From positions 1 to 40,309 of the forward strand of contig JASLLI010000005.1 of the NCBI GenBank assembly GCA_030747125.1: 40,309 bases of DNA, read 5' to 3'. Made by a program: the position numbers and the translations under genes. Of this stretch, positions 2,832 through 7,025 are shown in pieces (the stretch's first letter is position 1; each line of letters opens with the position of its first letter). The notes under the pieces were generated by a model. That model made no database searches, was not told the origin of the DNA, and worked only from the letters and a program-made list of their open reading frames with translations. Origin of the DNA: Fidelibacterota bacterium (lineage in GTDB: Bacteria > Fidelibacterota > Marinisomatia > SCGC-AAA003-L08 > D37C17).

Positions 2832-3344
2832 CTACCTCCGGTAAAACCCAAGGTATAATTGGGACTTCTCCGCTTCATAAGATCCACGGATGGCGAAACC
2901 ACCATCTGACAGAAAATTATCCATAGGAATTGCATTCAATTGCATACGGATATGCTCTGCACTCCAGAACTCAAAATTAATTGTACTCTCAAAATCAAAA
3001 ATATACTGGTCCCCTTTAGAGACAACCTGATTCATTAACTGGGTTACCTCACCATTCCCTGATTTACTGATATTGACTTTAGTATCTGCTAAAATCTCCA
3101 AAGTGAGGGTATAAGGTGCAAAAAGTTTTATGATTCCTGTAAAATCCCGATCTTTCTTTTCAGGGAGAAAGTCGTTATTATTCAGGGGAAGTTGATTTAA
3201 CAGCAGGGTAGCATGGTTTAATTCTTCAGGAGCAGACGGTTCTGCCGGTGATTGGATTGTTCTAATCGGCTGTGGAGGGACAGCCTCAGTTTCCGGAGAA
3301 GTATCCTCCTCACCTTCAGGAGGTTGAGTTAGGGATTTTTTTTT
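2832..3344 (-). pseudogene. RodZ-like protein, C-terminal part in shifted frame
   Basis: This frame continues the RodZ-like gene after a one-base frame change. It is open from 3344, inside the A-run, to the stop at 2832. A TGA at 3347-3345 blocks it upstream, so it cannot be a longer independent gene. The ORF track shows only the part after a TTG at 3101. It encodes a Pro/Glu/Ser-rich linker, then about 95 residues of beta-rich sequence (from LFAPYTLTLEILADTKV to the C-terminal YLGFYRR). This resembles the periplasmic C-terminal domain of RodZ (DUF4115-like). There is no convincing start codon or ribosome site of its own, so expression would need frameshifting, slippage or correction of a base call. 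Read together with the upstream frame the product would be about 349 aa, a normal RodZ length. Confidence 0.72.
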
Positions 3345-3880
3345 TCAGCAGAGTCCTCAGTTGAGGGGATTGTATCCGCTGAAGGTATATCCTTACTTTC
3401 ATCCTGCAAAGGAGAGGATTGTGTGGTTTTGGGAGGGGTATTGTCAATCTCATCTGACTGTTCATCTGTTATTTTTCCTGCCCAGAACAGGATGAGAAAA
3501 ATACCAATGATGACAGCGGCTCCCGTGGCAATCTGTTTTGGAGAAATCTGGGCAAGGAATGGTTCCGGCGTTTCACTTAACCCTTTTGAAACTGGTTCAA
3601 TTGTATTAGGTTTTACCTCAATTTCAGGAGAAGAAATTTTCCCTGTGGTGTAGAGTTCATAGTCCACCAATGCTTTACCTGAATCAGCGCCAATATATTC
3701 TGTATAGGCACGCAAAAAGAGGCGCATATAAACGGTAGGAAGTACCTGAAAATCTCCTTCCTCAATAGCTTGAATATATTTAGGATTGATTTTGGTGAAT
3801 TCACATATCTCACCAATTTCAATATTTTGGGATTCCCGATGCTGTTTCAGGTGGTCAAAAAATGAATCTGTGCTGGTCAT
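3329..3880 (-). CDS. rodZ: RodZ-like cytoskeletal HTH protein, N-terminal part
   Basis: RodZ-type architecture. There is an N-terminal HTH_25/Xre-like domain (about residues 6-75, with INPKYIQAIEEGDF and YMRLFLRAYTEYIG), a linker, and one TM helix (about 116-135, QIATGAAVIIGIFLILFWAG). An acidic Pro/Ser/Thr-rich periplasmic linker follows, ending early at residue 183. RodZ links MreB filaments to the membrane in rod-shape control. The stop comes six codons after the start of a ten-A run, and the missing C-terminal domain is encoded directly downstream in the -1 frame. The gene starts 14 nt after the maf stop and is the last of the C25 peptidase-maf-rodZ series. The short product alone would keep the MreB-binding HTH and TM but lose the periplasmic domain. 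Confidence 0.78.
   Translation of the reverse strand: MTSTDSFFDHLKQHRESQNIEIGEICEFTKINPKYIQAIEEGDFQVLPTVYMRLFLRAYTEYIGADSGKALVDYELYTTGKISSPEIEVKPNTIEPVSKGLSETPEPFLAQISPKQIATGAAVIIGIFLILFWAGKITDEQSDEIDNTPPKTTQSSPLQDESKDIPSADTIPSTEDSAEKKNP
3336..3345 (-). other. A10 homopolymer at the RodZ frameshift
   Basis: Ten consecutive T on the plus strand read as AAAAAAAAAA in the coding sense of the RodZ-like gene. Frame 0 stops at 3329, and the -1 frame opens only at 3344. The 16-nt overlap of the two frames is therefore essentially this tract, and the frame change must occur here. Adding one A (A11), re-reading one base (-1 frameshift), or losing two A would restore one long frame. Confidence 0.9.
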
Positions 3881-3894
3881 AAGGGGCTGAAAAA

Positions 3895-4491
3895 TTAAGG
3901 TGTTCCTGAAAGACTGTCCAATAGATTAATCCCCAGTTTTTTTAATTCTGCATAAAATCGGGAAAGGGGGAATCCCACTACATTATCGTAGCATCCGGTT
4001 ATTTCTTTTACAAATAGGCAGCTCCAGTCCTGAATACCGTAAGAACCGGCTTTGTCATAGGGTGGGCAGGTATCAATATAATAGGTGATTTCGCTGCGGC
4101 TGTACTCTCTGAACTTTACCATTGTCATTTCTGAAAATTGGTGATGTAATTGCCGGCTGGAGCAGGTGAGGGTAACACCGGTATAAACGGTATGGGTCTT
4201 TCCACTGAGAGATTCTAACATGGAGATCGCCTGTGATCTGTCATCTGGTTTCCCTAATATATGATCATCCAAAACTACAATGGTATCTGCTCCGATAACC
4301 AACGCTTCAGGAAATTGATTTCCCACATCATTGGCTTTCATCTCTGCCAGAATACTACAATATTCTTCCGGGTTGCCATCCGGTGTCAAACTGTCTTCAT
4401 CCACATTGGGGAGAATGATATCAAAGGGATAGTTCAGTCTCTGCAGAAGCACTCTTCTTCTGGGACTGCTGGATGCCAGAATCATTTTCAT
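3895..4491 (-). CDS. maf: Maf-family nucleotide pyrophosphatase
   Basis: Maf/YhdE-type nucleoside triphosphate pyrophosphatase of 198 aa, the usual length. It hydrolyses non-canonical or pyrimidine NTPs to NMP and pyrophosphate. Visible motifs are the N-terminal ILASSSPRRRVLL substrate loop, VIGADTIVVLD, ILGKPDD, SGKTHTVYTGV, and a C-terminal PPYDKAGSYGIQD. The last is characteristic of the dTTP/UTP-specific YhdE branch, though the subtype is inferred from memory of the motif. The start overlaps the stop of the upstream C25 peptidase gene by 4 nt (ATGA), indicating coupling. A second in-frame ATG two codons later would also give a good start (MILASSSPRR). Maf beside a rod-shape gene is a common arrangement in other bacteria. 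Confidence 0.93.
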   Translation of the reverse strand: MKMILASSSPRRRVLLQRLNYPFDIILPNVDEDSLTPDGNPEEYCSILAEMKANDVGNQFPEALVIGADTIVVLDDHILGKPDDRSQAISMLESLSGKTHTVYTGVTLTCSSRQLHHQFSEMTMVKFREYSRSEITYYIDTCPPYDKAGSYGIQDWSCLFVKEITGCYDNVVGFPLSRFYAELKKLGINLLDSLSGTP

Positions 4492-7025
4492 GGAATTTTC
4501 GCTAAAGTATAAATTTCTTCAAATACAGGCTTTCCCTCAGTTTTAGCAACAACATGATACAAGTATGCCCCGCCGGGAATATCTCTTCCGGTAGCATCTA
4601 ATCCATTCCAGGGGATGGCAGTAAATTCCTCCGTTGCAATCTGTTCTATCCGGATAATCTTCTCACCATCCAGGGTGTACACCGTTATGGTTATCTCCGC
4701 CGGCAGATGGGGTACTATCATGGTGAAATGGGTTTTATCTGAAAAAGGATTGGGGATAGGGTACACCTTATTCAAATTGAAAGACTGAGATGGAGTTCTA
4801 TCCAATATATCCCATTGGATTGTTATGTTAGATTGATTGTTCACACCATCCCATGCTTCAAAGTAGAACTGCTGCCTGCCACTGTGAATAGTGGTAGGAA
4901 CAGGAATTGTGAGCCAACCCTTAGAGCAATCTGTATAAGTGAACTCCTCCCCTGGTATAAGGGTCAACTCATCCTCTCCAAAGGCATAGTGTATGCCGTG
5001 CCCCAAGGCTTCCATGAGGTTAATTCCCGACTCATCATATAGTTCAACCTTTATTGGAGCAGAAGGAATAATTGCAGTGCCTTCATGTAATAATGTATTG
5101 TTTTGCCACAGCATAATTTCAGGACCTTCATTATCATTCCTCTCTGAAGAAATTATTGACAGAGGAAGGGAAGGCAAATATTGTATGGCTCCGTTTTTTC
5201 CCTCATCATCCTGATACAGGCGAAGAGATGCGGTGCAGTCTGAACAATATCCTGCATCCAGGGGGACTCTAAAACAGGCATTCCCGTCTTCAAAATGAAC
5301 TTTGGCAAAATTCACGCCTGGTGACGAAAAAAACAGGGTAGAGTCCTCGCCGAAATTGATCTCTTTTTCCTGTGCTTCTACCAGCAATGTGGAAGATACG
5401 GAAATGTTCTCTACCTCAAGAGTATGGTCCTCAATCAGAGAGATAGACTCAGGGTAGGATTTAATGAGAGCATCATCTTTTTTAGGGAAGGGCAGTCTGA
5501 GAGCGGGGTCTCCGAAAGTATGAAATTTATAAAACGCATTATTTTTTGCAAGGCGTACTATTTCCCCTAAACGATAATTGTGACTGTCTTCTACAAATTG
5601 TCTAATCCCGGCGGTGCTGGTAATACCAAAAAGGTTGTTGAGATAGTTACTGTTTTCAGTGTATCCCACAGCGTCTGTGGTTGCCACTACGGCGATAGCG
5701 CCCCCGGTTTCTAGAAGGAGTGACTCCATAAATGAATTTTCTCCGTAATACTTTCCGAATGAACATGTACCGGCTATCCAAATGGGAAATTTATTTTCCT
5801 CAGGTTGGATGAGCTGTAAATCACGAGATTTTGTTATAAGTTTTTCACCTGCCCAGGTTTCAGAATCACCATGCCCAATATAATTAATCATTGCCAGCCC
5901 ACTGTTTAGATTGTGGATGATATCCCTGGTGAGATTGGGGTAGGCACATCCTGACGGAACCTGTTGTAATACATATTGTACTCCATAAAAGGTAGTTACC
6001 GGAAGGAATGGGATCAGGGAGTCATATATATTATCAGAATTGGTGGTATGGCTGAACTCTGAATCATTAAATGCACAACTGCGATACATATCATCTGCTA
6101 CTAATCCCATTCTGCTGCGCCAAATGCCGGGAATTGGATTTAATGTATAACTGCGGATATTTTCCACAATGTTTTCTGCTTCCTGTAGAGTGGATACGGG
6201 TATTCTGCCACTTGCCAGTTGAGGGTTTCCACTGAAAATATTATCCCCGGAAGGTGTACTGTAGAAGTCATCAGAGGGGTAATCATTATTATAGTAAATG
6301 GGTGGAATATCATTTTCGTCCCCAAAGAGTAATAAAAATTTCAAATCCGGTTTTAGATGAATCTGACTTTGAATAAAATTCCTAATATCGTCCCCCGTAA
6401 TTAAATGCCCTAAACTTTCAACCGTAATTACTTCGGTAATCAGTTCAAATCCAGACTCCACTTCATTGGTATGCATATCAGCAAGATTTTGTGCTGCAGA
6501 GAGGAAAGTTTCAGAGGTGATAATAAGGTATTGGGTACTTTCTGCTCTCCTATTGACATGGGTATGAGGTGTATCCAATAGAAAGGGATGAAAGTACTCA
6601 CTAAATTCAGCAGTGTCATAGTGTATCTCTAATTCGCCCTGGGATAAGAATTCTAATCTGCCCTTTTCAATCCGCCAGGGAATAATCTGTATATTAACTA
6701 CAGGGGTATTCTTATGCCACTGAATCGGCGAAATTTGGATGGGTTCAGGAATTTCCATATTTTGCGGTGCAATTCCTATGCTTTCCCATGCAGGGAATTT
6801 AATTTCCAATTTCAGGCTGGATACATCTTTTGTAATAATCTGCCAGTTAAAAATATCAATCTCAATTTTATTAGAAAATAGAGCTGTATTTGAACCTGGA
6901 AATTTCCAATGGATGGAATTCAATTGGGGTTCTTCAAAGGGAGTAAGTGGTAAGAAATGAGACTTTCCAGGAAGCAGTGAAATCAGAAAGATACCGAGGA
7001 GAAGGATTTTTGCCTTGAATAACAC
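4488..7025 (-). CDS. C25 (gingipain-family) peptidase, PorU-like candidate
   Basis: An 845-aa secreted cysteine peptidase. It has an N-terminal signal peptide (about residues 1-22) and a propeptide-like beta-rich region to about 160. The C25 catalytic domain spans about 165-510, with FLLLFGDENDIP, SGRIPV, the catalytic His in NYIGHGDSETW (His385) and the catalytic Cys in WIAGTCSFGKY (Cys421). Ig-like regions follow, and the last 90 residues begin LNKVYPIPNPF and contain ITVYTLDGEKI and WNGLDATGRDIPGGAYLYHV, a FlgD-like/type IX secretion CTD pattern. In Bacteroidetes the C25 member PorU is the sortase that cleaves such CTDs. This protein could be PorU-like or an ordinary secreted peptidase, which only phylogeny can settle. 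It is the first gene of the minus-strand run with maf and rodZ. Confidence 0.88.
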   Translation of the reverse strand: MLFKAKILLLGIFLISLLPGKSHFLPLTPFEEPQLNSIHWKFPGSNTALFSNKIEIDIFNWQIITKDVSSLKLEIKFPAWESIGIAPQNMEIPEPIQISPIQWHKNTPVVNIQIIPWRIEKGRLEFLSQGELEIHYDTAEFSEYFHPFLLDTPHTHVNRRAESTQYLIITSETFLSAAQNLADMHTNEVESGFELITEVITVESLGHLITGDDIRNFIQSQIHLKPDLKFLLLFGDENDIPPIYYNNDYPSDDFYSTPSGDNIFSGNPQLASGRIPVSTLQEAENIVENIRSYTLNPIPGIWRSRMGLVADDMYRSCAFNDSEFSHTTNSDNIYDSLIPFLPVTTFYGVQYVLQQVPSGCAYPNLTRDIIHNLNSGLAMINYIGHGDSETWAGEKLITKSRDLQLIQPEENKFPIWIAGTCSFGKYYGENSFMESLLLETGGAIAVVATTDAVGYTENSNYLNNLFGITSTAGIRQFVEDSHNYRLGEIVRLAKNNAFYKFHTFGDPALRLPFPKKDDALIKSYPESISLIEDHTLEVENISVSSTLLVEAQEKEINFGEDSTLFFSSPGVNFAKVHFEDGNACFRVPLDAGYCSDCTASLRLYQDDEGKNGAIQYLPSLPLSIISSERNDNEGPEIMLWQNNTLLHEGTAIIPSAPIKVELYDESGINLMEALGHGIHYAFGEDELTLIPGEEFTYTDCSKGWLTIPVPTTIHSGRQQFYFEAWDGVNNQSNITIQWDILDRTPSQSFNLNKVYPIPNPFSDKTHFTMIVPHLPAEITITVYTLDGEKIIRIEQIATEEFTAIPWNGLDATGRDIPGGAYLYHVVAKTEGKPVFEEIYTLAKIP

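Follow-up and report, generated by a model that had tools for sequence, protein, structure and literature searches.

In the window, the 40,309-nucleotide stretch of DNA analyzed here, rodZ is divided between two reading frames at a run of ten adenines. We put the probability at slightly above one half that this run is a recoding site, at which transcriptional slippage would yield both a short and a full-length RodZ. The same kind of split recurs in murG, an essential gene of cell-wall synthesis, throughout the window's genus and widely across the phylum Neomarinimicrobiota (Marinimicrobia), to which the source, an uncultured marine bacterium, and the compared relatives belong. Judging from these patterns of sequence conservation, full-length proteins in these bacteria are very probably made by slipping on the A-run. 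We infer that the slippage is transcriptional, that it takes place at rodZ as well and that the short RodZ is useful. With somewhat less assurance, we suggest that poly-A slippage could be a permanent feature of how cell-wall genes are expressed across the phylum. In that arrangement murG would lie out of frame behind nine to eleven A's, as would rodZ in the window's genus; the frequency of slipping would set the supply of full-length protein, and short N-domain forms would be made alongside.

The rodZ gene and its counterparts

The window corresponds to contig C63 in a MAG of 1.7 Mb and 107 contigs (G000), and its rodZ occupies positions 3880-2832 on the minus strand. The first-pass annotation had described a RodZ-like gene split exactly at an A10 tract, with a frame for the helix-turn-helix and membrane segment that stops at 3329, a C-terminal domain in a -1 frame that opens at 3344 just after a TGA, and an overlap of only ten A's across which a one-base slip would restore about 349 residues. 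All of this is borne out. The 5' part (3329-3880) starts with the ATG at 3880 and encodes 183 residues ending in EKKNP. It contains an HTH_25, the RodZ-type helix-turn-helix, at residues 11-67 (3680-3850; E = 1.3e-15, 57.3 bits against a cutoff of 24.6), a putative transmembrane segment recognized by eye as a hydrophobic stretch at residues ~117-135 (IATGAAVIIGIFLILFWAG; 3476-3532), and the start of a linker. The A10 run, our proposed slippage site, lies at 3345-3336 (T10 on the plus strand) in the context GCT GAA AAA AAA AAT CCC TAA, in which the 0-frame stop (TAA, 3331-3329) stands two codons past the run. The 3' part (2832-3344), which holds the remaining linker and the C-terminal periplasmic domain and includes the peptide SLTQPPEGEEDTSPETEAVPPQPIR, is read in the -1 frame, where a TGA sits right at the start of the run (3347-3345). 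The two frames share only the A-run, and their fusion is 349 residues long.

An independent start of the C-terminal part is ruled out, as the earliest ATG, GTG or TTG in the -1 frame is at 3101, in the middle of the domain and without an export signal. Given that it has neither an earlier start codon nor a membrane segment of its own, the -1 part could work only as a fusion. By itself, the A10 run is not improbable; it is the sole run of at least nine A or T within the 40.3-kb window, and a first-order model predicts 3.4 runs of nine or more and 1.2 of ten or more. What goes beyond chance is the exact split of a conserved gene at this run and its recurrence at the equivalent place in relatives.

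The next gene upstream of rodZ encodes a Maf-like protein (3895-4491, minus strand; Maf, E = 8.6e-61), in the same order as in a relative, G005 (JACNLQ01, NIOZ-UU87). Upstream of maf follows a C25-family, gingipain-like peptidase (4488-7025, minus strand) with a weak C-terminal FlgD_ig-like match and a homologue at the same place in G005. On the plus strand, positions 1176-2498 hold a cluster of an ECF-type sigma factor, its likely small membrane partner and a periplasmic protein of the Metal_resist/LTXXQ type.

Directly past the run the linker is not conserved, and the C-domain beyond it (fused residues 230-349; 2835-3194) is under purifying selection. This domain is modeled as an all-beta structure with pLDDT above 95. 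It is intact over 170 codons, with a dN/dS of ~0.13 between the window's gene and that of L051, a contig of CAJWLO01. Dividing the dN of the C-domain by that of the HTH gives 1.9-3.0 for pairs that include the window's gene and 1.6-3.0 for pairs in which both genes are intact or one is intact and the other is that of G006 (JABHHG01, from another genus). By these sequence measures, selection on the C-domain is not relaxed, which leaves a recent split or a domain that continues to be made. The window's C-part alone has no match to Pfam RodZ_C, which is reached by 5 of the 15 homologous C-domains in our alignment A2 (best E = 2.6e-4), and a PDB fold search with the C-domain model gave no informative match.

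We compared the run among four rodZ genes, those of G000, G005, L051 and G006, of which two are split and two intact. All four have a run of nine or ten A's at nucleotides 535-554 of the gene. Protein identity of the surrounding linker is 17-43%, most pairs have synonymous sites that are saturated or nearly so, and the chance of a sense run of nine or more in a given 60-nucleotide slot is ~5e-4 per genome. In G005 and L051 the run is A9 and in frame (GAA AAA AAA AGT). In G006, A9 (GTA AAA AAA AAG CCC TAA) splits the gene in the same direction, with the C-domain in the -1 frame and the same CCC TAA as in the window. One extra A in the intact genes would lead to a stop four codons on (EKKKSNN* in G005, EKKKSDN* in L051), and in this sense each of the four genes has one full-length frame and a neighboring frame that stops at once. 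The first-pass annotation proposed that programmed slippage would gain support if relatives kept both an A9-A11 run and the split, and that uniformly intact close relatives would point to an error or private mutation. On this measure rodZ lends partial support, with the run in four of four genes and the split in two of four, and murG lends strong support (six of six species in the genus, 30 species in the phylum); the relatives are not uniformly intact, with G006 split in the same way.

Other rodZ genes vary more widely. In G019 and G015 (L012 and L013, 2053-2061) an in-frame A9 sits elsewhere in the linker, just before the C-domain, and was left out of the run count; slippage there would also produce a short form. 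The gene ends shortly after the membrane segment, without a periplasmic domain, in G007, G010, G013 and G017 (L008, L018, L033 and L032, respectively), and an mraZ-like frame follows it in at least L008, L032 and L033. We found no rodZ in G012, in G021 or in G001-G004, which make up four of the six members of the genus; the assemblies of G001-G004 contain no rodZ or maf match anywhere, and their contigs end before the expected place. L051 (CAJWLO010000082.1) carries a genus-type rodZ in a 2.9-Mb bin of another family (G060), whose MurG has the same coordinates as that of G188. This contig is probably mis-binned, making the absence of a genus-type murG with it uninformative. In G005 (L211, G005:C66), the dcw cluster, from mraZ to murG, follows immediately downstream of rodZ, which places the two A-run genes ~11 kb from each other on the same strand; the window's genome has them on different contigs.

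The murG junction in the genus and the phylum

In the window's genus, all six species carry a single-copy murG that is divided at A10, with the shift in the same direction as in rodZ; each of the other 17 family members has one intact MurG. At the junction a leucine codon (CTC or TTG) is followed by AAA AAA AAA A, a run of exactly ten. In the window's own assembly it is found at C22:14097-14106 (L061, 1498-1507); the relatives' sites are L181-L193, L215-L216 and L221-L249. The two halves score 121 and 159 against TIGR01133, below its cutoff of 250.25, and meet at model positions 161/156. The fused protein scores 291 and passes. The C-terminal part includes NVIFAGNPVR, and a search of G000 found no MurG other than the split one.

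Codon differences among the six species indicate which frame is under selection past the run. There, the -1 frame has 74 synonymous and 20 nonsynonymous differences, compared with 2 and 91 in frame 0. By this comparison the -1 frame is the conserved coding frame immediately past the run. Its conservation is already apparent ahead of its first ATG, which argues that MurG must be made across the two frames. We also considered fission of murG into two subunits, as in Alg13/Alg14, and rejected it on the basis of start codons and frame conservation: in 21 of 29 split genes the C frame contains no ATG, GTG or TTG before the GNPxR motif.

The split extends well beyond the genus. In another family of the same order, murG of G029 and G033 is split at the same codons after TTA and A10. 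We searched 245 Neomarinimicrobiota genomes for ten A's followed by the GNPxR motif of MurG and obtained matches in 32, from 14 genera; the reversed control had none. Twenty-six of these genes are split and five are in frame (G042; G132, G135 and G141; G195). The remaining one, L237, is a chance match in a genome whose real MurG is intact. Four genomes with a two-piece MurG and no ten A's, in which the gene was located through its synteny with rodZ, are all split at the same codons after nine A's. Altogether, 30 species from 14 genera and nine families have murG split at these codons, always at A9-A11 and always into the -1 frame, in a census that left out the two-piece genomes G047, G067, G082, G083, G097, G115, G118, G119, G128, G129 and G213. 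In most split murG genes the run is preceded by a codon ending in TT, which places a -1-frame TAA at the start of the run (TTAAAAAAAAAA; for example L221-L223, L226-L227, L231-L236, L238-L239, L246, L247 and L249). The window's rodZ has a TGA at this position.

The run is retained as nucleotide sequence and not for the protein, since intact genes without it do without the three lysines (YLNKTALL, YFPDNWIF, YLSGNLIK, YLSGDIRT). AAG makes up ~30% of the other lysine codons in the split genes and is never used at the run, even above 50% G+C. The split genes have 38-54% G+C and come from environmental MAGs. One A separates the run of G042 (A10, in frame) from that of its tree neighbor G052 (A9, split), and a quick MurG tree places at least four changes of state on well-supported branches, with a sampling biased towards run-bearing genes. 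Across these sequences the phase toggles while the run persists, in murG as in rodZ.

How the frame might be crossed

Every split, in both genes, needs the same change: one added A or a -1 shift of the ribosome. According to our proposal, RNA polymerase would slip on the rodZ A10 and add one A in some transcripts. Faithful transcripts would produce the 183-residue protein of HTH and membrane segment, ending two codons past the run, while transcripts with the added A would produce the 349-residue RodZ with its periplasmic domain. In G005 and L051 the proportions of the short and full-length proteins would be reversed. The same slippage would supply full-length MurG in the genus and much of the phylum. 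Single-nucleotide insertions are the main transcription error that bacteria make in A/T runs, and their frequency climbs exponentially as the run lengthens (PMC5574713); nine or more A's is the classic length for slippage (PMC1088944). Some observations count against this reading: a genome-wide survey in Buchnera saw no frame-restoring transcription error (PMC5574713), the relatives that lack the C-domain and the four genus members in which rodZ was not found would also fit erosion of the gene, and the 0-frame context of the run also fits -1 frameshifting.

Ribosomal frameshifting would give the same two products if the ribosome re-read one A on A_AAA_AAA. In murG the run contains A_AAA_AAA or A_AAA_AAG in frame, as it does in rodZ of G000 (A_AAA_AAA), G006 (A_AAA_AAG) and G005, and a CCTCCT/AGGAGG stem can be read ~12 nucleotides past the rodZ run of G000. 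However, this stem is absent from G005, L051 and G006, and no 3' structure or upstream SD-like element is common to the six murG or the four rodZ sites. Seven A's would also suffice for the heptamer, yet 9-11 unbroken A's are found in 30 of 30 split murG genes. Because of the length of these unbroken runs and the missing shared stimulators, we favor transcriptional slippage over -1 ribosomal frameshifting by roughly three to one, and consider frameshifting at rodZ rather improbable.

Alternatively, rodZ of this species might normally be in frame and the split might be a private mutation or an assembly or base-call error. The data come from a MAG, long A-runs are error-prone in both sequencing and replication, and rodZ of G005 and L051 is in frame. 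To set against this, we classified all runs of at least nine A or T in G000, G005 and G006, ~56 of which lie well inside genes. Intact in-gene runs number 10 in G000, 18 in G005 and 24 in G006, and the only split genes are murG (G000 and G005) and rodZ (G000 and G006). Three further apparent splits (L113 in G005; L104 and L151 in G006) proved by eye to be neighboring genes. G006 has one non-murG split among its 25 in-gene runs, and random placement would hit rodZ once in 25. Furthermore, the murG run of G000 is A10, as in five other assemblies. There is no reason why errors should pick out murG and rodZ in particular, and an assembly error or a private mutation of rodZ is unlikely. Among the causes that the first-pass annotation had listed without choosing (error, mutation, phase variation and slippage), slippage is the one we favor.

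Phase variation, in which replication slippage alters the length of the run and switches cells between short and full-length RodZ, is also quite unlikely. Poly-A can serve as a phase-variation repeat (PMC3711429), some relatives have the rodZ run in frame and others have it off by one, and murG behaves likewise in G042 and G052. Nevertheless, all six species of the genus have murG in the same phase, an off phase of this essential gene would be lethal without slippage, and neither RodZ nor MurG is a typical surface-exposed contingency product. Early decay of rodZ, with the run hit first and the periplasmic domain on its way to being lost, is very doubtful: it fits the four relatives without the C-domain and the six genomes in which rodZ was not found, but not the intact, constrained and confidently modeled domain of the window's gene, whose dN ratios match those of intact pairs.

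Under transcriptional slippage, the benefit could differ between the two genes. The short RodZ may be useful, because the two sides of E. coli RodZ are separable and four relatives keep only the HTH and membrane segment. For murG, a ratchet is an alternative: once the gene was out of frame, the run would have become indispensable as slippage supplied the enzyme, and the short form would bring no benefit.

Comparison with known recoding systems

Programmed slippage on A-runs is established for few bacterial genes, above all dnaX and genes of insertion sequences. Our literature search, which covered the murG literature in part, returned no report of such slippage for murG, rodZ or Marinimicrobia. 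Obligatory slippage for an essential peptidoglycan enzyme across a phylum would therefore, if true, be new in scale and target, and one rodZ gene would give two products, with and without the periplasmic side. Automatic annotation of these genomes likely calls MurG missing or fragmented.

E. coli dnaX uses -1 ribosomal frameshifting at A_AAA_AAG, stimulated by an SD-like element and a stem-loop. The sites described here resemble it in their -1 shift within A-rich sequence and in the stop that closely follows. They differ in having unbroken runs of A9-A11 instead of a heptamer, with no shared stem-loop or SD-like stimulator found.

Also similar are the dnaX genes of Thermus thermophilus, with A9, and of Chlorobi, with A10 and two ORFs, which work or are proposed to work by programmed transcriptional slippage (PMC1088944, PMC3711429, PMC5009743). 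These genes share with ours nine or ten A's, two product lengths and stops of the 0 or shifted frame near the run, and in Chlorobi the long product also lies in the shifted frame. As at sites of the Thermus dnaX type, our runs have at least nine A's (A10, with A9 in relatives) and are conserved in homologues, and in murG the shifted frame is under selection directly after the run. In contrast to dnaX, the proposed targets here are rodZ and murG, with roles in cell shape and peptidoglycan synthesis. In addition, it is the full-length MurG that is essential, and the short MurG has no known use.

In Blochmannia and Buchnera, genes frameshifted at poly-A/T are rescued by slippage (PMC3017870). Those genes likewise have a single frameshift in an A-run and are otherwise intact, selected and conserved between species. 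Unlike these host-restricted, very AT-rich symbionts, the genomes studied here are environmental MAGs from nine families, with 38-54% G+C in murG.

For RodZ itself, truncations in E. coli show that the cytoplasmic and periplasmic sides have separable functions, with the cytoplasmic side controlling the curvature preference of MreB and the periplasmic side required for shape and polymer number (PMC6052060). The RodZ described here resembles it in its HTH_25, putative membrane segment and predicted all-beta periplasmic domain. It differs in that its periplasmic domain lies behind a proposed recoding site, and the window's C-domain falls below the Pfam RodZ_C threshold that relatives reach.
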